From contig CP136063.1 in assembly GCA_032622095.1 (NCBI GenBank), forward strand, positions 149,659,379 to 149,723,378: a stretch of DNA of 64,000 bases. Direction: 5' to 3'. Under the pieces are notes generated by a model. It ran no database searches, had not been told where the DNA came from, and saw nothing but the letters and a program-made list of their open reading frames with translations. How positions within the stretch are numbered: position 1 is the stretch's first letter; every line of letters starts with the position of its first letter. The DNA comes from Siphonodentalium dalli. Its lineage: Eukaryota > Mollusca > Scaphopoda > Gadilida > Siphonodentaliidae. Below, in pieces: positions 10,101-63,445 of the stretch. The translations under genes were made by a program, and so were the position numbers.

Positions 10101-13100
10101 CCTGCACAACCATTTTATTAGTCAAGTTTTTTTATCAAATTTTTTTGATTTGACGAGGGATTCTGACAATTTTTGGTATGTGAGTTGATTGTCACGTGCG
10201 ACAGCTGCTCAGAGTAAATTAGGCCTGCCCCAATATGTCACAGTTTTATGTTTGTTAGCGTGATAACTTGAACTAACGCAAACCAATTTCATTCATATTT
10301 GGTATATCGATCTTTCAGAACAATATCTTGATCAAGTTCAAAGACTAGATTTGTGCGATTTTTTTTTATCTGAGTTACGATCCTCAGTTGGTCTATTTTT
10401 TAGCAATTTTAGGAAATTTTATATCCGTTAGTGCGATAACTTTATCAGACGTCAACCTATTCCATTCATCTTTGGTATATGGATCTTTTACAACAATATC
10501 ACTAATAGGTTCGAAAACCAGATTTGTCCGATCCTTTTTACCTGAGTTATGGCCTTCAGTACATCTATTTTTTTTAATTTTAGGAAACGTTATTTCTGTC
10601 AGCGCGAAAACTTGAGAGAACGTCAACTAATTTTATTAAAATTTGGTATATGGATCTTTCACAACAATATTTCGATTGAGTTCGAAAACCAGATTTGACC
10701 GATCCGTTTTACCCAACCTACGGCCCTTAGTTTGTCTATTATTAGCAATTTTATGACCATTAGCATGAAAACTTGAACAAACATCAAACGATTAAATTCA
10801 TATTTGTTATGTAGCTCTTTCATAATAATCTCTCGAAAACCATTTTTGTCCAATTTAGTTTACCTGAGTTATGGCCCTTAGTTTATCTATTTTTATCAAT
10901 TTTATGACCGTTAGCGCGATAACATGAACAAACTTCAACCGATTCCATTCATATCGGGTGTATGGATCTTTCACAACAATACATTTTTTTAGTTCGTAAA
11001 CCAGGTTTTCCACTGTTACACCCTTAGGTTGTCTATTTTTTAGCAATTTTATGACTGTTAAGTCGGTATTTTGAACAAGCATCAACCGATTCCATTCATA
11101 TTGGGTATATGGATCTTTTATAACAATATCTTGATTGAGTTAAAAACCAGGTTTGTTTGATTTTTTTTTAAACCTAAGTTATTGCCCTTAGTTCTGAGTT
11201 ATGGTTCTGTAGTTCTTCCATTTTTAATGATTCTCAGTCGGACGGATTCACTCTTATGAGCAAAAAACTCAACCACAGCCATCTTTGATGCTCAACCATT
11301 ATTTGCATGTGACATATCAGAAAAAATTATAATTGGCATGAAAATGGCGGTACGTTTATATATAAACCTGTATGTATGGAGACCCGTTTCCTGAATCAAA
11401 TTTCTGATTCATTACTGTAATTGGCAACCATGTGCTAAATATATCATTTACTGCATCTGTATGGGAAATAGTGGCGACAGGCAACTGCAATTAAACTCAA
11501 GATAGCTGATGCAGAGGTGGAATGCTTCTTTGGCATGTGTCCCAGAAATAAAATAAATTATAAAAAACCATGCTCTCGCATGCTTTTCAAAATGTTTTTG
11601 TCCTGAAAAATGGGAAATTGACTTTGCGTGGTCTATACATTTATGATTATCAGCTGTTTGTAAATCAACCTATAGTGGTACAAGTTAATACATAGTTTGG
11701 TCATTATATAGCAGGCTTGCTTACTGCATGTATCTGGGTAATTCTGATTCATTATTTGTCAAACAACTGCTACCGGTACAAGTTAATGCATAGTTCGATA
11801 ACTGTGTAGCAAGTTTGCTTATAATGTGTTTTAAATACATCAGTAGCTTATATTGAATAATTTGCATTTTTTTTATATTTCTTTTGTGTTTTGTACTATC
11901 AACATAATATCTATTTCTGTTACTTTAGTGTTGGTAGTTTCAGCTGTTTTATTTAAAGATAGTGTATCTCATTCCTGAACTTTCCCTATAGATTATGAAA
12001 CAATAACTTTGAGACGGACAATGTTGTAAAAAGGGGCTTCTGTTACTAGGAAAAAAGTTGTTTCCAAATTTATTTCCCCACTAACTGGGACAACAAATGT
12101 GGCTATTTTTAGAACAATACACTGTTCAGCTGTGAGATCTGTATCTTTTTCAAATGAAAGTCTTTTAAAACTTAAAACATTATCATGCCACTGTCAGGCA
12201 GACAAATTTATCGATACACCAAATAATGATTATAAAACTTCTCTAAAACACTATATTTTCGTATTTATTTTCTTGTATTCACCCCATGAATTTGTTTCAA
12301 ATTTGATATTGACACATATATTATACAATTGTAGGCTATGGTTCATTGAAGGATTATTTGGATGACATGTCTGTAGAATGTTCTGATTATGAGCCACTGT
12401 ATCAGCAGCTTGGTATCCCTCGTCAGACTGATGCCACCCAGATACCCACATCTTCCAGACATGATGAGATCATCCAGATGCCAGCTGCAGGACAGCGACC
12501 ATCTACAGCAACTAACAAACCACATATTGTATATAGGTAATATTACTTATTATACACAGTTAGTATAAATTTCCTAATAATATGACCTTTTATACACCGT
12601 TTTCATTCTTTTCATGATTGTTAGACCAAGTTTACTTCATCTTTGCCAGCCAGTGATGTCAGTTGAGTTAGTTATTTGTCCACTATTTACACTAGGGATC
12701 TGCGAAACAGCGATTTTGCATCGAATCGAATCTCGATATCGAATCTACTTCCTGATATCGACATTGAATTGAATCTCAAATCGAATCAGCTAGTGATTGT
12801 CTACCAGTGTTTATTTCGGTGTCTCTTGACAAAATAAAACTGCAAAATGCACTAGATGCTATATCAACAACGTTAATCTCCTTAAACATCCGCTGGAATG
12901 TATGTTTTTTTTATGAAAATCATGACATAGTTCACTCTCAGTCTCACGTAGGGTTTGGGATATGTTTCATTGAATTTCTATCTAGCCGTGTCATGGCGAA
13001 CATGACACCGTGTCATGGCGAACATGACACAAGAAGTGACTGTAAGACAGTCCAATCAACCTATCACAATCCCCATGGCTCGGAAGTCACTTTTCTACAT

Positions 13101-28649: not shown

Positions 28650-31600
28650 TTAAAGTGATTATGAAAAGTTCTGACTGATGTGGTCTCCAGAGTCCCAGTC
28701 TTATCAGTCTTTGCAGTCTGGTGAGCGACCCCACATTTGGAGCAACACCAAGTCAGACAGTGACTTGTCAGTCTAGTAGCCATTGTGCTGTACATTGTGT
28801 CTACGTTTTGTAACTTGCGTAATTATAACGAAAGCTTGAAATGTATGGGTATACTATTCTATCTGGACTCATCACTGACATTCACAAGACTCACAAGTTC
28901 ACAACTTTCATGAAATGATTTGCTCACGGAAATTAGAATACGTCATCAGAAGAAACTGCCCATGCATCACGGTCTATTTATGGCATACACCGTCCATTCA
29001 AGCAACTGCGTGGGTGTACAGTCTGTGCATGTGTCATGAAGTCATGGCTGTGCATGGGTTATGAGACAAAACCTTAAGTCCTTAACCCTTAGACGATAGC
29101 ATGGTCAATTCTACTCACACTTTATATAGAATTTGCAGATACATAACATATATTGCATTGTGTGCTGTGCATGGACAAATTAAACGAAATTATGTGCCGT
29201 TGGTGTCCCCTGATGTACGATATACCGAGTGTTAACAATTCACCCCATTCCTGGTTCAAACAAATTATATTCCCGGGAAATTGGAATGGGTATATAATTA
29301 TAAGTACTAGCCTAATATAGGCTAATAAACCTGCGTTTCAGACCTAATGTATTGGACTAGTTTTGTAATTTTTGCTATAAACTGGGACTCGTTGTAGATC
29401 CTCTATTTATCACACCACCCTCTTTACAGGTATGGATTTTGGTACCAATTGATCGGTATTGAAATAATAACCCTTCTGTCAATGCCATGAGCATATGCTA
29501 TCCAATGCAATATTTATTTATCTACCCGAGTTCATATTCCCAGTTGCTGCTCATGGTGAGTCACTCATGGTATTTGGTATTGTTTGGTTGATGGCTTAGA
29601 AAATATTAACCCAGTAGTATTATTTAACCCTATCATGGTCTTGATTTGAATTCAGGTTTGCCATGACATACTCTTCACCTGTATGGATATGTTATAGATT
29701 TTGGAAATATTAACGCTTCTATCTATACCATAGACAAATGCTTCCTGACAGTATAGTAACTCAGCTGGTTTATTTTTAGAGTAGATTAGATTTAATCTTT
29801 GATTTAATAGACTTTAGATTTATTTCACTGGCTGTTGACCTTTGAAAGTCACACACCTGTTTGCCAGGAATTAGATCCAGATTACTGACACTTCAAGTAT
29901 TATTTCCGTGTTAGTGAAAGTATGGGTTAAACATCTGTCGATCATGATCGGCGTCTCATTAATTATGTTGCTGATCAATGATTTGCCGATTCCTTGTTTT
30001 ATAATAGCTCTTTCTATGATGGCTTTTCGATATATAATAGTTTTATAATCTTAAATTTCCTTTCGTAATTCAATGCTTTGTGCAAAATCTGTGTGAAGGT
30101 TCTATATTAAAAAAATAGGAATTTTTTTATTTTTGGTAAAATTGCGTTTTTTGGATTGGCCATTGGTTTGACAAAGAGAAAATGATATGAGAGTCTGAAA
30201 ATAATAAATAAAAAAGGATTTTTTTTTAATTTTAAAATGAATGGAATTTTCGAAAAAAATTATTTTTTGGTGAAATTGCGTTTTGTGGATTTAAAAGGGT
30301 TTACATACTGTATATATGGAGTTGAGTGTATTGCTTATGTCATACTGTTTACATACTGTACATATGGAGTTGAGTGTATTGCTTATCTCATACTGTTTAC
30401 ATACTGTATATGCGGAGTTGGTGTATTGCTTATCACATACTCCTTACATACTATATCACAACAATGTATGTAGAAACCTTTATGGTGGGGAGAGGACCAC
30501 ACACAGAGTAAATATCACACCAATGTATGTAGTAACTTTTATGGTGGGTAGAGGACCACACACAGAGTAAATATCACAACAATGTATGTAGTAATCTTTA
30601 TGGTGGGGAGAGGACCACACACAGAGTAAATATCACACCAATGTATGTAGTAACCTTTATGGTGGGTAGAGGACCACACACAGGGTAAATATCACACCAA
30701 TGTATGTAATAACCTTTATGGTGGGTAGAGGACCACACACAGGGTAAATATCACAACAATGTATGTAGTAACCTTTATGGTGGGTAGAGGACCACACACA
30801 GAGTAAATATCACACCAATGTATGTAATAACCTTTATGGTGGGTAGAGGACCACACACAGAGTAAATATCACAACAATGTATGTAGTAACCTTTATGGTG
30901 GGTAGAGGACCACACACAGGGTAAATATCACACCAATGTATGTAGTAACCTTTATGGTGGGTAGAGGACCACACACAGGGTAAATATCACACCAATGTAT
31001 GTAGCAACCTTTATGGTGGGTAGAGGACCACACACAGAGTAAATATCACAATAATGTATGTAGTAACCTTTATGGTGGGTAGAGGACCACACACTAAAAC
31101 TGGCAATGTCGTGATATGGCCTTGGTGGCTAAAGCGACAATAAACATCAATCAATCAATCAATCTATCTTTCTGGAAGAAAATGTTTTAGTGACAAAGTT
31201 GCCACTAGGGATACTGAATATAATGAGACCCAGTGTTTATGTTAACAGTGCTTGTGAAAACTCGGTCAAATTGTAGTTGATTAACTGATGTAAAAACTAA
31301 AAACAAACTGCTAACGATCTAAATATTTCAAACTGTGAATTCTTAATTGGGCAATTCCACGGAATGCCGGCTGATACGGACCCTGGCTCTTACGGACCCT
31401 GGCTCATACAGACCCTGGCTTTTACGGACCACCGGCTCATACGGACCCTGGCTTATACGGACCCTCGGCTTATACGGACCCTGGCTCATACGGACCTCAA
31501 TTAAAATATACAATTTTATTTTTTATGTTTATTTAAATAAAATCAAAATACTGACAACATACATACTGAGATAACAAAAAATCGGATGATAACAAAAATG

Positions 31601-34600
31601 GACCAACCTTACATCAGACGAACATTATCTAAATTGGGGCGTACAGCTTGGCGGCTTCTTTCAGTAGTTTGCTGGCAGTTATCATCATCGACGAGTAGTA
31701 GCTGTTGTGCTCTCAAGTAGAACATTCAGGTTCAATGCAGTCATTGTGGAATTATGCCAGTCAAAAATAAATCAGTTGAATATATACCAGTTGTGTTTTT
31801 ACTAACATGTTTTCATAACAAATCAAACTCAGTGGATTCATACTAATCACCATTCACTGACCATTCATCATCGCGTGTCTGTTTATAAAACAATATAAGG
31901 GATCACACACGAGTGTGTATACAAGGGACAATAAATCAGTTGAAACAAGTTGTGTTTTTACTAACATGTTTTCGTAACAAATCAAACTCAGTGGATTCAT
32001 CCTCATCACCATTCACTGACCATTTATCACCGCGTGTCTGTTTATACAACGACATAAAGGGATCACACGCGCGTGTTTATACAATGATGAAGAGATTAAT
32101 TAACGCGATTCAATAAATGCTTTTTCAAGCCAGAACATCACCGAAATTCTCAATTAATACAGATATATGTGTGAAAATACAATCATAATTATATATTAAA
32201 TTCATAAATATAAATTTGAAAAAAATCGGTTAAATTCATAAATATAAGTTTGAAAATTACATATTTTAATTGAGGTCCGTATGAGCCGGGGTCCGTATAA
32301 GCCAGGGTCTGTATCAGCCGGTGGTCCGTATAAGCCAGGGTCCGTAAGAGCCATGGTCCGTAAGAGCCAGGGTCCGTATAAGCCGCATACCATTCCACGC
32401 AGGGTAGGACATAGTGACCAAAATTTCAAACTCATATTTTATATTAGTTCTTTGGTTAATAATTATGACTGAATATTGAATATTTTCAATCAGTTAAGGG
32501 TTATGTCTGTCTTCTTCTTAAATTTTGCTTATCACATGTCATTTTAGTAGGATACAAAATATATAGATTTACACCATCGAAACCCTTAAAGTGACCTACT
32601 CATGAACAAAATTTAGTTGATATTGAGCATTTAGTTGAAAACAATAATAATCCACGGAGTTAACAGATCTGATTTTCATAAGCTTTAGTTGGAAAAAATT
32701 AAAACTGTTGGTGGAATGTCTTGTCCAATTAGATGGACATCGTGTAACATCAGTCATGGGGTTTTGACAATTTTCAATGTCACTCATGAAATATGAGCAA
32801 CATTAAGGCTCTTACACTATAATTATCTGTTACAAATGTAGAATAATGAATGATGGAAGAAAATATTTGCTTGAAAATAATTCTTTCAATATAAGGTGAT
32901 AAATAGTGTGTAACATCAGTCACACTGTGTATTAAAGGTCAGTCACATCCTAAAATATATTGTTAAACCCATAATGTTGAATACCTTTGAATAACAATTT
33001 TTTTTAGATTAGACAGTCCTTGTAACTAGTACTTCATTAATTTCAACATAAGCTGTCCAGTTGATATAATTTAGTCACAAGGCAATTTGTGCCATCCTGA
33101 GGGTCAGTAGTGCTATTTCACGGGGAATCCAGAGCTCACTATCGAGCAAATGTAAATTCTTTTAACTGGTAAATGAGGTACTAGTTAACACCATACTACA
33201 TGTACTATTGTGAGTGGGTTGGAGCCAATGTGTTAACCATATAAATCCAGCAAGTGAAAGATTCTGGTTGTTATATGACATATAACATATCAGTATCTCA
33301 AAATGGGCTAGAACTACATGTAATCATATATATATATATCATATAATCTTATAACTATAAGTACATCATTGTTATATCAAATAAGGCCCAGGTTAGATAT
33401 AATGGTAAAGGTTTATGTATATTTTTATAACCATTGCATTGGTGTAATCATATGTGTATTTTTTTTCAAGCATAAACAACCAATAACCCTGACTAAATAT
33501 TGTGTCAATGTAGAGCCAAATAACTGATTAAAATGTAACTTCAGTCACAGAAAAAAAAATTTGGACAACTACTATAATTTGTTTCTAAGAAATTATATTT
33601 AGGTCTAAATCAAGAAAAATCAATTGCCAACATATGATCCATCACTATTATATATTTCAATTGGCGGAAAATCAGACATGAACATAAGTGGTTAAAATTC
33701 ATGTCATTTTTGTGTAACATCAGTCACAAAGTCATTTTGTTATGTAATTTTGTAAACATGGAATGTACCAAAATACTTATGGTCTTATTTTGCAGTCCTC
33801 TCAAACACTTCCATGAATATTTGTTGTCTCTTTTGAATGACTGTTTAATCCTGGAATTAGGAGCTTGTAAAACACTAAAATTTCCATGTTGTAATGTCAG
33901 TCACACGTGGAATTGCCTAATTGTTCAGTGAAGGTGTGAAACAAGCCTAGCAACATCTAATCATGCCCCTGTTGTTATACTGGAATCGGCTTGTCCATGC
34001 ATCCGTCCGTCCGTGGACACAAATTTGTCTGGAGTTTTTCTCAGTTGTTTTTTACTCATTTTCTGTGAAACTTGGCACAGACATCAACCACCATGGGAAC
34101 ATTTGCACCTGTGATTATGACATCTGTTCGACTTTTTTTGGTGGAGTTATTCCCCTTTTTCGACTTAAAAAATGTTTGCAACATGCATAATTTTGTCCAA
34201 GCTTTTATTCCTACATTTTTAGGTCAATGTTTTTGAAACTAGGCACAGATATTTAGTACCACAGGAACCTATGCACCTGTTATTATGATATTATGATATC
34301 TGTCCAACTTTTTTGTGTGGAATTATTATGCTTTTTCGACATTTTTGCAACATGCATAATTTTGTCTGAGCTTTTATTCCTACATTTTTTGGTCAATAGG
34401 TTTAGGATTAGGGTTAGGGGTTAGGGTTGTGCTCCTGCAATGGGAATCTGTTATTTTATTATTTTAACTTAATGTTTACAGATATGTGAAACATCTTTGT
34501 GTTTTAAAAACACGGGGGGGGGGGGGGGGGTATCCTTAGTCCTTTGGGACAGTCACACCTCTAGTTACTGGCAGGCTTATGGACTAAAAGTATTATCAGA

Positions 34601-44454: not shown

Positions 44455-45000
44455 CCATACCATAGTATGGTAAACATAGTGTCGTTGCCCGGATTGACCA
44501 CTCGTCGTTAGTCCGTCCGTCTGTCTGTCTGTCTGTAGACACTTTACGCATGGTGCGATAACTCGAACATTTTATATCTGATCGGAACCAAATTATATGA
44601 ATTTGTCAGCACCAAATACAGATCGAGTTCGAATATGGGTTCGATCCGAGTTTTTTTCACGGAGTTATGGCCCTTTTTCGACTTAGAATTCATGCATGCT
44701 ACCATAACTCAAAATTTTTTTATCTGATCAGAATCAAATTTGGTATGCAAGTTTCTCGGACCAAAATACAGATCGAGTTCGAATATGGATTTGATCCGAT
44801 ATTTTTCAATGGAGTTATGGCCCTTTTTCGACTTAGAATTCATGCATGCTGCCATAACTCAAATTTTTTTTTTATCTGATCGGAACCAAATTTGGTATGC
44901 GAGTTTCTCAACTCAAAATACAGATCGAGTTTGAATATGGGTTATATCCAACATTTTATACCAGAGTTATGGCCCTTTTTCAACTAAGAATTGAACAGAT
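44455..45000. repeat. Degenerate satellite, ~150-bp units, three copies
   Basis: Units share CTGATCGGAACCAAATTTGG, AATACAGATCGAGTTCGAAT, ATGGGTTCGATCCGA, GGAGTTATGGCCCTTTTTCG and ACTTAGAATTCATGCATGC. A short palindrome CCATACCATAGTATGG marks the left edge. Related single units occur at 26880 and 45490. Confidence 0.8.
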
Positions 45001-56499: not shown

Positions 56500-57952
56500 A
56501 GCCTCTCTCCAAGTTGAGCTTCATGGACACTTTCATTAGAAACCCATACTGATATATGTACTAAATTTCAATGTGACCCAGTAATCCTTTAATGTGATAT
56601 ATTTGCAAAAGAACAAAAAAAGATAAATATTTCCCATTAAACATTTTACACTGCCTTCAAAACCCTCGTGTTGGCAAACATCCATACTATTTTTCGTTGA
56701 TATCAGCTGACATGTAGCTGAGATATATATGTGCAAACAGACAACATTTCAAGATAAACCAAAGATTAGTTATTCTTTATTATTTGAACAATCCCATGTT
56801 ACACTAATTTGAAAGCCCTTGTGATGCAATATCAAATTTCATTGAGGTCCGATAACTTGTGACTGTGTTATTTTTGCATATGGTCATAATGTGAACAAAT
56901 AATAATAATAACTCTAGAAAATATTGAAAAACACCATTTGTTATTCAATTGAAAAATTATTAATATTTCATTGTTGTCCAACAATCAATGGCAATAATGA
57001 TATCCGCCAAAACCCCTGTTTTCTAACGTCAAAATGCTTACTTTTATATCAGTGTAGAGCAATTTTTGCGTTTATTTAATGCTGGGGCAGACCATTTGTC
57101 ATGGCAGAATTCTACACGTGACAACTAATATTATATGGGTGATCATCCGTATAGTCTATAAATCTTCCAGAAATTTTGGGTAGTCACCAAATTACGACCG
57201 ATTGCCATGGCAACCAATATTTGGAAAATTATGCATTTGGGAGCTGTAATTTCGCTATATGACAAGATGTTTGCGACATTTTGAATCAAATGTAATTAAT
57301 TTCCAAAGTTATATGATCCGGGAATATACCTAAATTGCTCTCGCTTCTGGTTCGTTCCTCTGAAGGAGTCAAGATCCACCTGACATGGACCGACCTAGCA
57401 AGTCGCCAGCGCGCAATTGGCACTAATATTTATTGTCCTGGTGCATAAAAGTTGATCATCTGTAGGCGTGTAGTCTGGCGCACATGTACTTTGAATTTCG
57501 TGGTTGGCAACCAATGTTCATGCCATTGTAAAACGCTAAACAAAGCAAAGAAACGTCATGCAGTTTGACCCAACTACAAGGCTAAATGCGATACTATTAA
57601 AAACAAAGCAAATGAGTCCCTCAAGTCGGTGCAATTTGGTTTGTTTACCCAGAATTTCGAGGACATTTGGCCACATGAACTCAATGGGAAGTAACTCTAA
57701 ATTAACTAAGCACAATCTGTGGCTGCGTTTGTGTTATTATTTCTGGGTAAACAAGCTTAGCGATAGAATGTGCAGCAATAATTCTGAGTGCCAACCGAAA
57801 ACTTGTCTACTACGCATCTGAATATTACTGGCCGCCGCCATTTTGGAACAATGATATCACGAATCACAACACGCGACCCCCACGTGACGGCAAAATATGT
57901 TACATCGTCCTGGACTGCTCAATGAGCGATCGGTCTATAGCCTACTGACTAT
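56500..57952. other. No feature seen
   Basis: Mixed AT-rich DNA; an open frame at 57558-57821 shows no recognised motif. Confidence 0.45.
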
Positions 57953-58616
57953 GGGAGGCCAAATTCACATTTAATAAATAATGCGCTTAAGTGCAAAGAA
58001 TTGCGCTTAAGCGCAAATAACACATATTGTGCTTTAGCACAAATAGGGCATTTACGCTTTTTTCCCTGATTTAAGTCAATAACCATATGAGGTAAGCAAG
58101 CCCTCATGCAGAGACACCACATGCATGCTATAGTACCGTATATGCCCATAGTATTGGCCCAAATCTGTGCCAAAATACATTAAAAAACATATAAAAAATT
58201 ACTAGAGTTCCAGGAAGGAGAGTAGGAGACATCAATTCTTTGGATATAGGGATGCTGATAATATGTAATTAGGGATTATTATGGCTGAATGGGTCACTCT
58301 CACCAAAAGAAGTGCTGAAGGGTACACAGGGTTTGAAAATGTGCTGAAGGGTACACAGGGTTTGTGACCGACACGAACACCATTACTTAAATTGTGTTTA
58401 TGAAAGTCTGGCGCCCATCAGCAGTTTGTTTTCAGTACATTTTAATATTCATTGGAACGTAAACAATTATTCTCTAACAGAAATCATGGAAGATACGAAA
58501 ACTGAATGTCCTTTAGAACGACATTTCAAACCCTGTGTACCCTTCTACACATTTTGAAAATCCTGTGTACCCTTCAGCACTTTTTTTGGTGAGATTGACC
58601 CCTTCAGCATTATTAT

Positions 58617-60196
58617 GGGGGCCCTTTTCATATTTATTATTTATTTATGCTTAAGCTCAAATATTTGCGCTTAAGTGCAAATATTTGCGCTTAAGTGCAA
58701 ATAACCTCTATCATTTGCGCTTAAGCTCAATATTTATGCTTAAGTGCAAATAAAAATTAATATGCATTGATCCCCCCTAAATAAATTTTAAACGGCACAG
58801 GCCTAAACACATCATTAAAGTATATATAGGCCCACCATATGAGGGAAGCAATCCCCCAGTAACCCCAAGATCCCTTTTATGACCATGGAAATGGTATAGA
58901 TCTGTGCAGGATATGTCTCTTTTATAAAATATACTAGATCTCTGGGATGGAGAAACCAATTCTTGGGGACAGTGATGCTGATAATATGAAAATAGGGTTT
59001 TTCCCCTATTTCAAGTCAATAAGTATACCATATGAGGGAAGCAAGCCCCCAGTAACCCGTAATTCCCTATTTATGGCCATGGAAATGATATATATCTGTG
59101 CAGGAGATGTACCTTTAATAAAATATACTAGAGCTCTGGGAGTGAGGCACCAATTCTTGAGACACCAGGGACAGCGATGCTGATATGCATATGGAAATAT
59201 GTTTTTTCTTCAACTTTTGAGTGTATGGGCCTACTACTATGGGCCCATGATAATATACTATGAGATGGACTCAATCATTCACAATCAGAGGGAAGTAAGG
59301 GAGTGTTAGGTATTTGCGCTTAAGCGCAAATGATTTGTGCTTAAGCGCAAATAAATTGATGGACACATATTTGCGCTTAACCCTTTGAACCCTGATGTCC
59401 TGAATGTTAAATGACCCCAACCCGAGGCGCCTGACGTTATATAGTGTTCCGACGACGTAACTCATAAAGCTCTTAATTGGGACGTATATACATGTATACA
59501 CGCTCAACTATATGGCAATCTACTATGCTAACTGAACAAGTGTGCAATGAAATATGTCACAATGTATTTCAACGAGACAGTCTATTCCACGTTCAATATA
59601 CATGTACATGAATATAGATATATTGCGGCTTCCTTTGGTCGCGCTATATATTTATAACGAAATTCTTGCACTTTGCCTACAATAGAAGGCATTTCTCAAA
59701 ATGCACCTGTGTGCTTGCGCAAAGAAACAGACCCCCTGTTTCCAATTTGGGTGCTAAAATCAGAGGTATGAACATTTTCGCGCAAAGTATAGAAGCACTA
59801 TTCTAGTTAATTTGGGCTTTGATCGCGAAATTTCTAACGAAATACTTCCCCTTTTCCGACAATAAAAAGCGGGTTTTTTTTCTCGAAATAGGCCTCTGCG
59901 CATGCGCAAAGAAACAAACCCTCTGTCGTCAGTTTGTCGATCAAAGTCACGTGGGTAAACATGTGACACGTGTGTGCAAAGTAGAAGTAATTATACAACT
60001 CTAGTTGATAAGTGCGTTTATTGAGCTGTAATGTCGTGTCAAATATCGTCTGATTTCCGGACCGGTATTCGGGTCTCCCGGGATATATAGGAATATAAGG
60101 ATTGGACCGGTATTCCGGTCTCTCAGGTTCAAAGGGTTAAGCGCAAATGATTTGCGCTTAAGCACAAATAAATAATAAATGTGAAAAGGGCCTCCC
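58617..60196. mobile_element. Fold-back element B nested inside A
   Basis: The arms GGGGGCCCTTTTCATATTTA and, inverted, GGGAGGCCCTTTTCACATTT continue into TTATTTATGCTTAAGC and TTTGCGCTTAAGTGCAAAT. Its interior holds two ~190-bp direct units (58820-58990, 59010-59190; words GACCATGGAAATG, CTGTGCAGGA, ACCAATTCTTG, GCTGATA) and element C. The ends are related to those of A, so A and B are subfamilies of one group. Confidence 0.7.
59381..60136. mobile_element. TTAA-target element C inserted into a GCGCTTAAGCGC palindrome
   Basis: The ends CCCTTTGAACC and GGTTCAAAGGG are perfect 11-bp TIRs flanked by TTAA at 59377-59380 and 60137-60140. The flanks TTTGCGC and GCGCAAATG show that the TTAA is the centre of GCGCTTAAGCGC. 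piggyBac and Kolobok both use TTAA. The interior has a ~130-bp repeated segment (59640-59760, 59820-59940) and no transposase. Confidence 0.85.
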
Positions 60197-60512
60197 ATAG
60201 ATTATCATTGTTGAACACATAGTCACAGCTGACTGTTGAGTACTCAGGCTAATTAAAACAAGATAAATTAGCCCAATGCTCCTCTTGTGTTGCTAGGTGA
60301 TACACCAGGTCATGCCATTTGTTTATGGGTACATGTAGGTTAGATAGTAGTTACGATTATGCTTAAGCGCAATTAGTTGCACTTAAGCGCAGTTCATCAC
60401 GCTTAAGCGTAAATGCCCTATTTGTGCTTAAGCACAATATGTGGTATTTGCGCTTAAGCGCAATCAATTGCGCTTAAGCGCAATTCATTATTAAATGTGA
60501 ATTTGGTCTCCC

Positions 60513-61325
60513 AAAAGTTATGGATAAACCTATTTTTTCAGCAGGGGTGTTTATAACTTTAGTTACATATAACCATAATATAATGCTATCATGACAGTGA
60601 ATTATCCAGCGATTTTTTGGGGACACCTGTTTTTGGGCAATGATATGCCGAAGGCATAACCCAAAGACATGAGCGAGGGAGGTTTGGGAGGTGGTATCCC
60701 CCTGCTGATGTTGGGGGGGGGTCTCCCCCTGGAATGTTTTTAAAAAATCCAATGCATTGAGAACTAATCTAGAGCTCTTGGGAGTCAGTATTTTGAATTT
60801 TACTGAGATAAAGTTTCTGAAGCATAACTTTGGTTTATTTTTTATATATGTATGGATTGCAAATGCTTATAAGTTATTGTCAGGTATCTTTTTGTTCAAT
60901 GGAATGGATTATGCTTATCCTTGAAATGAGACCATTATCACTGTAATTCATATAATAGGCTATTTTCTAAAATTCAAGTGAGAGACACATTTATAATATA
61001 CTACTAGTAGTATAGTACAGAAATAATGTCTATTAAGTTACATGTAGTAATTACTAGTAGTACTAATCTCTATGTTAATTATTCATTTGGTATTATGAGA
61101 TCCCACATGATAACCAGGTTTACTTGATCAAATTGTCACTGTTCCTCTACTGTATTACAGTATATGTGTAATTTCACTTGAATTTGATTGAAATACTGAA
61201 GTCTGAAGGGTTAACAATTTGAAGTTTTCACAGATGAAAGCTTGATAAAGCCAAATATACTTTACAGTATTATTCCAACTGTTAAACTTAAGTTAAATTT
61301 TTTTGTAAACTTACATGTCTTATAT

Positions 61326-61361
<36 letters not shown>

Positions 61362-61640
61362 TGTTGTTATGATATGAATTGGGACCTGAAAAAAAAAGGA
61401 ATTTTTTTTGTTTTGTTTTTTTTTGGGCGCCTGTAGTTTGGGCGCCCAAACCGGTAAACGGTATGAAAAATGGCCTGGATATGTCCCTGCATGAGTCGCT
61501 CCAATTAAAACAGAAGGTAATACTATTGCGAGTCAGCCATTTTGATAAAGAAGTGGGGCTAGCTCCATACACATCCAAACCAATGAAAACAAGAGGTGAT
61601 ATGTCAATAGGAGTTAAGGTTAAGTTATGGATAAACTTTT
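60513..61640. other. AT-rich DNA with a TA microsatellite
   Basis: A (TA) run lies at about 61328-61360. The word GGATAAAC...GGGGTGTTTA...GTTACATATAACCAT occurs at 60520-60585 and again at 61627-61675, next to each right arm of the fold-back group, so it is probably part of that repeat. Open frames near the TA run are not genes. Confidence 0.5.
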
Positions 61641-61669
61641 TTATTCACCAGGGGTGTTTAGTTACATAT

Positions 61670-61994
61670 AACCATGAATTGCGCGTAATCGTAATTATTT
61701 GCACTCAAGTGGAATCAATTGCGCTTAAGCGCAATTAATTCTGCTTAAGCGCAATTAATTATTAAATGTGAATTTGGCCTCTGAGCAAAACATTTAATTA
61801 TAAAAGAATCAATCGCCTCATAACAATTTAGTGCATGATCGAAGTGGGAACGGATATATCCGTGTCCTGTCTAGGTAATGTTTTGGGAAACGGATCTAAA
61901 CGAGTTAAGCACGATTGATTGCGCTTAAGTGTATTTTTATAAAGTGCAATCAATTGCGCTTAAGCGCAATTCATTGTTAAATGTGAATTTGGCC
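61670..61994. mobile_element. Two right-arm remnants of the GCGCTTAAGCGC fold-back group
   Basis: Arms ending ATTATTAAATGTGAATTTGGCC occur at 61700-61787 and 61905-61994, each preceded by ATTGCGCTTAAGCGCAATT. No matching left arms are found nearby. Confidence 0.6.
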
Positions 61995-61999
61995 AAATT

Positions 62000-62201
62000 G
62001 GGAGGCCAAATTCACATTATTAATAATTGTACTGAAGCGCAATATATGGAAAATTAATTGCGCTTCAGAAGTTCAGCGCAATTCAATTGCGCTTCAGGAC
62101 AATTCATTTTGAATTGTGTTTCAGCGCAATTGATTTGCGCTTCAGTGCAATTGAATTGCGACTTGAAGCACAATTATTAATAAATGTAAATTTGGCCTCC
62201 C
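62000..62201. mobile_element. Fold-back element E, complete 202-bp copy (CGCTTCAG variant)
   Basis: It starts GGGAGGCCAAATTCACATTA and ends in the inverse CCTCCC with TAAATGTAAATTTGG. The internal palindromes use GCGCTTCAG rather than GCGCTTAAG, marking a subfamily. It is the smallest intact member and useful to define the family. Confidence 0.8.
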
Positions 62202-62249
62202 ATACATGGTTTGGTCCATTTTGCCCTATTTTGTTCGAATTGTGGGATA

Positions 62250-62863
62250 TCTATTATATATTTTGAAAGATCTGTGTGTGTATCTGTCTGTGTGTGTGTG
62301 TGTAATCGATGGACTCGAAAATGGCCTAGCCGATTTCGATGAAACTTGGTATGTGGGGGTATTTTCGGCCGGGGACGAACATAGGCATATTAATTTGTCC
62401 GTGCGACGTGACCTTGACCTTGAAATCGGGTCATTTCAAGGTCAAACGCCCGAATATCACGGGATTTCGACGAAACTTGGTATGTGGGGGTACTTTCTTA
62501 TGGCGAGTCTCATAAGCATATTCATTTGCCCGTGCGACGTGACCTTGACCTTGAAATCGGGTAACTTCAAGGTCAAATCGCCAATTTTGATGGGATTTTG
62601 ACGAAATTTGATACGTGGGGTTACTTTTGTCCACTGATTGTTTTGGACGGGTACAATCGTGACCCCGACCAGACCTTGACCTTCAAAATTATCAATTCAA
62701 GGTCAAATCGGGTAAAACCGGATGGATTTCGACGGGCACGTTTGTCGGGTACTTTTGTCCGGGCAGTGTTTTTGGACTGGTCAAATCGTGACCCCACTTG
62801 ACCTTGACCTTCAAAATGGCCAATTCAAGGTCAAAGCCCGGACGAAGTCGGGTCACCTTCTAG
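62250..62863 (+). mobile_element. Helitron-like element, first of a head-to-tail pair
   Basis: It starts A|TCTATTATATATTTTGAAAG and ends with a bulged hairpin (CCCGGAC GAA GTCGGG, 62837-62852), 7 nt and CTAG|T. The inside has CGATGAAACTTGGTATGTGG units and many TGACCTTGACCTT / AAGGTCA words, plus a TG run near the 5' end. It is non-autonomous, with no Rep/helicase frame. Confidence 0.8.
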
Positions 62864-63445
62864 TCTATTATATATTTTGAAAGATCTGTGTGTGTGTGTG
62901 TGTGTGTATCTGTCTGTGTGTGTGTAATCGATGGACTCGAAAATGGCCCAGCTGATTTCGATGAAACTTGGTATGTGGGGATATTTTCAGCCGGGGACGA
63001 ACATAGGCATATTAATTTTTCAGTGCGACGTGACCTTGACCTTGAAATCGGGTCATTTCAAGGTCAAACGCCCGAATATCACGGGATTTCGACGAAACTT
63101 GGTATGTGGGGGTACTTTCTTATGGCGAGTCTCATAAGCATATTCATTTGCCCGTGCGACGTGACCTTGACCTTGAAATCTGGTAACTTCAAGGTCAAAT
63201 CGCCAATTTTGATGGGATTTCGACGAAATTTGATACGTGGGGTTACTTTTGTCCACTGATTGTTTTGGACGGGTACAATCGTGACCCCGACCAGACCTTG
63301 ACCTTCAAAATTATCAATTCAAGGTCAAATCGGGTAAAACCGGATGGATTTCGACGGGCACGTTTGTCGGGTACTTTTGTCCCACTTGACCTTCAAAATG
63401 GACACTGCAAGGTCAAAGCCCGGACGAAGTCGGGTCACCTTCTAG
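62864..63445 (+). mobile_element. Helitron-like element, second of the head-to-tail pair
   Basis: It begins at the base after the first copy's CTAG with the same 5' end TCTATTATATATTTTGAAAG and ends with the same hairpin and CTAG (63442-63445) before T. It is about 95 percent similar, with a 34-bp deletion near the 3' end and a longer TG run. Confidence 0.8.

Follow-up and report, generated by a model that had tools for sequence, protein, structure and literature searches.

Two same-strand copies of one element, probably a short canonical Helitron, stand head to tail at 62250-63445 with no base between them, near the end of the 64-kb window (the whole stretch of DNA analyzed). We slightly favor, over rolling-circle read-through, an origin in which two members of the same family were stacked by successive insertion, the downstream copy (copy 2) first and the upstream copy (copy 1) later. 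The rough probability that we give this reading, about 0.48, is, like all odds weighed here, a matter of judgement.

Layout and ends of the pair

In either copy, the element extends from TCTATTATAT to CACCTTCTAG; its 5′ end is TCTATTATATATTTTGAAAGATC and its 3′ end GACGAAGTCGGGTCACCTTCTAG. The first-pass annotation had already described the copies as abutting without an intervening base, and a scripted check bore this out with exact coordinates and termini. The A that it saw ahead of the pair and the T behind it were located at 62249 and 63446, respectively. It also noted that the copies differ in TG-run length and by a 3′ subterminal deletion, which we could specify as 4 + 7 versus 10 + 5 TG repeats and as 34 bp lost in copy 2. 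Because a T follows both copies, their similarity by itself leaves the boundary of the repeat uncertain by 1 base; this ambiguity was fixed by the rule of TC and CTAG termini at an A/T site. The features used below are as follows.

62249, + strand: host A preceding the pair, 5′ half of the A/T target
62250-62863, + strand: Helitron-like copy 1, TC...CTAG, 614 bp (from sequence, BLAST and alignment)
62273-62302, + strand: TG microsatellite of copy 1, (TG)4 TATCTGTC (TG)7
62324-62863, + strand: four internal units of copy 1, at 62324-62454, 62455-62585 and 62586-62716 (131 bp each) and at 62717-62863, which runs into the 3′ end
62837-62852, + strand: candidate 3′ terminator palindrome of copy 1, CCCG-8-CGGG, 16 nt, stopping 11 nt short of the 3′ end
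62854-62873, + strand: head-to-tail junction CTAG/TCTATT, G/T and not A/T
62864-63445, + strand: Helitron-like copy 2, TC...CTAG, 582 bp, lacking, in comparison with copy 1, stretches of 34 bp and 6 bp close to the 3′ end
62887-62924, + strand: TG microsatellite of copy 2, (TG)10 TATCTGTC (TG)5
62946-63445, + strand: four internal units of copy 2, at 62946-63076, 63077-63207 and 63208-63338 (131 bp each) and at 63339-63445, which is shortened by deletion and runs into the 3′ end
63419-63434, + strand: candidate 3′ terminator palindrome of copy 2, matching that of copy 1
63446, + strand: host T behind the pair, 3′ half of the A/T target, followed by an AT run

Probes for the two ends (25 nt for the 5′ end, 23 nt for the 3′ end, up to three mismatches allowed) each matched the 64-kb window exactly twice, in all cases perfectly and at the two copies, and gave 0 matches in 100 shuffles. 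BLAST of either copy against the window returned the pair and its own internal repeats only, with no further copy.

Class assignment and internal anatomy

End and flank motifs suggest that the elements are short, non-autonomous canonical Helitrons. Both copies carry termini of the canonical form (5′ TC, 3′ CTRR, as defined in the cited parts of PMC4067079 and PMC5148889), here TCTATT...CTTCTAG, and the pair as a whole lies between A and T with no duplication of the flank, as in canonical A/T insertion without target-site duplication. The canonical definition that we applied also includes a palindrome of 16-20 nt about 11 nt from the 3′ end. The candidate palindrome is placed correctly, at the same 11-nt distance as the 19-bp palindrome of Helraiser (PMC4778049), but is weak: its 4-bp stem folds at -3.3 kcal/mol (z = -0.33), no stronger than shuffled sequence, with 76 of 200 shuffles folding as well or better. 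A Helentron/HINE assignment, for which a T-rich and preferably TT insertion site is expected, does not fit the A/T flanks and the TC/CTAG ends.

Several searches gave null results. Among the 25 inverted-repeat pairs listed of 28 (at least 12 nt), none linked both ends of one copy, as the subterminal inverted repeats of a Helentron/HINE would. The window was also scanned for Helitron 3′ ends carrying a perfect 6-8-bp stem; no additional end came up, a weak result because the known ends, with their 4-bp stem, also escape it. Rfam at gathering thresholds assigned 0 families across the whole window. Only two open reading frames of at least 120 aa overlap the copies, with 131 and 123 aa, and both run through TG runs and repeats; we take the element to be non-coding. 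Pfam at E 0.001, applied to 6 of the 11 listed open reading frames of the window, all of them other than the 131- and 123-aa frames (one without its first residue), assigned 0 families.

Within the element, an AT-rich 5′ end is followed by the interrupted TG microsatellite and then by the four internal units. Among the units of copy 1, the first two are 78.6% identical and the other five pairs reach 57.5-63.8%. The first unit can form a perfect 13-bp hairpin from TTGACCTTGAAAT/ATTTCAAGGTCAA (fold z = -4.5). Counting either strand, TCAAGGTCA occurs nine times in copy 1, seven times in copy 2 and once in the remaining 62.8 kb of the window. This motif is the extended half-site of NR5A/ERR nuclear receptors, so a Helitron-like family could scatter such half-sites; the richness may just as well be a side effect of the inverted repeats inside the element.

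Searches for relatives used exact patterns. The internal motif, the 5′ end and the 3′ end had 0 matches in a viral contig collection, as did the internal motif in prokaryote genome contigs; these zeros say little because the collections comprise viruses and prokaryotes, in which a eukaryotic element is not expected. An 18-nt junction pattern was present in two viral contigs and was treated as a chance match because extended similarity to either copy was absent by blastn (best alignment 23 nt at 87%, E = 0.026). In the literature searched, a 15-letter piece of the internal unit surfaced in four papers, none of which, by title and start of abstract, concerns Helitrons.

The window contains a variety of other repeats, whose style would, as a guess, suit an animal genome and perhaps that of a mollusc. 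The 100 bases before the pair are partly repeat, with six more BLAST matches in 57950-62043 on both strands, and 57950-62203, upstream of the pair, holds several short arrays of near-palindromic, AATTGCGCTTAAGCGCAATT-like units of 20-21 bp. At 476-1046, a TCCG-type microsatellite precedes three 169-bp tandem units, a layout of microsatellite and internal array that resembles non-autonomous Helitron/Helentron elements. Short arrays of about three copies each occur at 10246-10753 (171-bp period) and 44558-44992 (152-bp period), and a 59-bp tandem repeat at 30453-31094 comprises 10.9 copies with 95% match. The arrays at 31367-31496 and 32274-32385, separated by about 0.8 kb and made of GGCTCATACGGACCCT and of nearly its reverse complement, are perhaps the arms of an inverted-repeat element.

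Origin of the head-to-tail arrangement

The first-pass annotation had taken the junction as the product that marks rolling-circle read-through and the locus as a record of that mechanism. Its Helitron call and the head-to-tail layout stand; the mechanistic claim does not, as canonical insertion upstream of a resident copy yields the same G/T junction with A before and T after. The junction does not tell the mechanism because the host A and the first T of the resident together constitute a canonical A/T target. For bat Helitrons, Pritham and Feschotte argued that elements inserted independently should be separated by an A (as relayed in PMC2267711), an argument that is valid only when the second insertion lies downstream of the first. 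The first-pass annotation offered, next to divergence in place, an origin from two circles, which comes close to the stacking favored here.

Under stacked insertion, copy 2 would have entered first, at a host A/T site. There, the A of the host would have made up a new A/T target together with the first T of copy 2 and the AT-rich end behind it; into this target copy 1, as another family member, would later have inserted, joining its CTAG to TCTATT. The outcome would be a pair with A ahead and T behind, and mobilization would presumably have been provided in trans by a RepHel partner. The copies, their ends, the junction, the flanks and the differences are observed directly, and we infer the order of insertion, the two sources and RepHel mobilization. 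Junction and flanks fit stacking because canonical insertion directly ahead of a resident copy gives an identical product.

Base composition offers a possible reason for such a hit. A+T makes up 85% of the first 20 bases in copy 2, a value reached by 4.7% of the 20-base stretches in the window. Helraiser favors AT dinucleotides in surroundings that are AT-rich within ~20 bp, most of all on the flank that adjoins its 3′ end (PMC4778049); a resident 5′ end may thus attract insertion, as it is AT-rich and lies on this preferred side. The argument loses force for the whole 40-bp target, in which the upstream flank and the beginning of copy 2 together have only 75% A+T, reached by 17% of the 6643 A/T sites in the window. 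With the copies only 2.1% apart and no other copy in the 64 kb, a precise chance hit on the 5′ end would be a rare event if that end held no attraction for insertions. The finding that Helraiser re-insertions show no clustering near donor sites (701 sites; PMC4778049) counts against stacking.

The differences between the copies bear on their relative age. Excluding the TG runs, 11 of 515 aligned bases (2.1%) are substituted, and copy 2 lacks two stretches that copy 1 carries close to its 3′ end, one of 34 bp and one of 6 bp. We take both indels to be deletions in copy 2 because unit 3 of both copies retains matching sequence. Substitutions tend to neighbor each other, with four pairs at most 4 nt apart where 0.83 would be expected (p = 0.004), five within 8 nt (1.6 expected, p = 0.007) and five within 10 nt (1.95 expected, p = 0.018), in a test chosen post hoc, after the differences had been seen, and tried at these three cut-offs. 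Such clusters argue for stacking as inherited blocks from different source copies, and the clustered differences lean toward two sources; single multi-base mutations could also create them. Tests of evenness were not significant (Kolmogorov-Smirnov test for uniform positions, p = 0.08; longest difference-free run, p = 0.10). Gene conversion between the copies was considered and rejected, that run of 181 of the 515 columns being not unusual (p = 0.51 with clusters collapsed).

To polarize the 11 substituted sites, the other internal units, only 57.5-78.6% alike, served as outgroup, and apparent differences at 62761-62762, alignment artefacts of the deletion, were left out. The derived state was assigned to copy 2 at five sites and to copy 1 at two, with two ties and two uninformative sites. 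This excess amounts to a tilt only toward copy 2 and is not significant (5:2, p = 0.45; 7:2 including the deletions, p = 0.18; 9:2 with both ties also assigned to copy 2, p = 0.065). At that non-significant level, the additional derived changes and both deletions in copy 2 speak for copy 2 as the older element. We also counted for stacking that the 3′ part is more complete in the inner copy 1, unlike in the inner copies of tandem arrays, which are often 3′-truncated according to the cited part of a review (PMC7492417).

Rolling-circle read-through is the most serious rival, and we hold it to be a real contender at somewhat less than even odds. Here, the first CTAG would have been bypassed, or a circle traversed twice, and a two-unit molecule would have entered one A/T site; the copies, identical at birth, would since have diverged where they stand through point mutations, slippage in the TG runs and deletion. 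The exact G/T junction with single A...T flanks agrees with this account, as do the difference of only 2.1% and a window without a single copy. For Helraiser, precise end junctions in circles and 3′-end bypass have been shown experimentally (PMC5876387, PMC4778049), and a weak 3′ palindrome would favor bypass. The junction, however, does not discriminate, and neither the clustering of differences (post hoc) nor the derived-change tilt to copy 2 (non-significant) is expected between copies of equal age.

It is improbable that copy 2 entered, by a non-canonical insertion, the G/T end of a resident copy 1, which would make the downstream copy the younger. This order is among the two raised for a maize pair, of which some lines carry the upstream element only (PMC2267711), and 46 of 1,751 Helraiser insertions were not at AT. 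G/T is nevertheless a rare target, the most prominent Helraiser alternatives being TT, AC and AA and not GT (PMC4778049), and the weak polarity between the present copies is opposite in direction. The maize lines with the upstream element alone also argue against the stacking order in that pair, as excision would be needed (PMC2267711).

It is just as improbable that host recombination duplicated a resident element in tandem or that the pair is an artefact of assembly: the similarity of the copies and the 1-base ambiguity of the boundaries are compatible with this, but the unit would need exact TC...CTAG limits and no flank, and neither 100-base flank recurs at the junction. The sole flank likeness is between 17 AT-rich bases after the pair and the start of copy 2 (11 of 17 matching), equaled by 3.5% of composition shuffles.

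Known head-to-tail Helitrons and implications

The pair is a further instance of a kind already in print, with a G/T head-to-tail pair published for maize (Du et al. 2008; PMC2267711) and head-to-tail junctions and arrays reported from bat and plant genomes (PMC5876387). The maize pair (AF466202) shares the same orientation, the direct succession of CTAG and TC and the G/T junction with the present one. Its members carry different genes and were judged to be consecutive insertions, whereas our copies belong to one family and are 2.1% apart (PMC2267711). Du et al. concluded that the maize pair arose from consecutive insertions in an unclear order, with insertion upstream of the resident as one of the two orders (PMC2267711). 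Perfect head-to-tail junctions like ours were also described for Myotis lucifugus Helitrons and interpreted as tandem repeats (Pritham and Feschotte 2007, as relayed in PMC2267711 and PMC5148889); here, only one pair is known.

In the fungus Metarhizium acridum, three tandem copies were given the same two explanations, entry at the 5′ terminus of an element already present or rolling-circle replication; in another fungal case, a FoHeli4 sits 2 bp upstream of the 5′ end of another copy (PMC5148889). The fungal tandem Helitrons are non-canonical, with asymmetric terminal inverted repeats, unlike the present element (PMC5148889). In anatomy, the oyster Cg_HINE is similar, being short and non-autonomous, with an internal satellite-like array downstream of a microsatellite-like segment. 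It is, however, of the Helentron type and occupies T-rich (preferably TT) sites, in contrast to the TC/CTAG ends and A/T flanks found here (PMC7492417).

Head-to-tail Helitron junctions have been cited as genomic support for rolling-circle transposition (PMC5876387). Given many pairs, stacking and read-through would be separable by comparing the upstream copies with the downstream ones in age. A more general proposition, which we consider rather unlikely, is that the AT-rich 5′ end and the host A form a built-in preferred landing site, on which copies stack upstream and the upstream copy is the younger. Were this true, head-to-tail pairs would be dated stacks, and arrays would be an unreliable sign of rolling-circle read-through.
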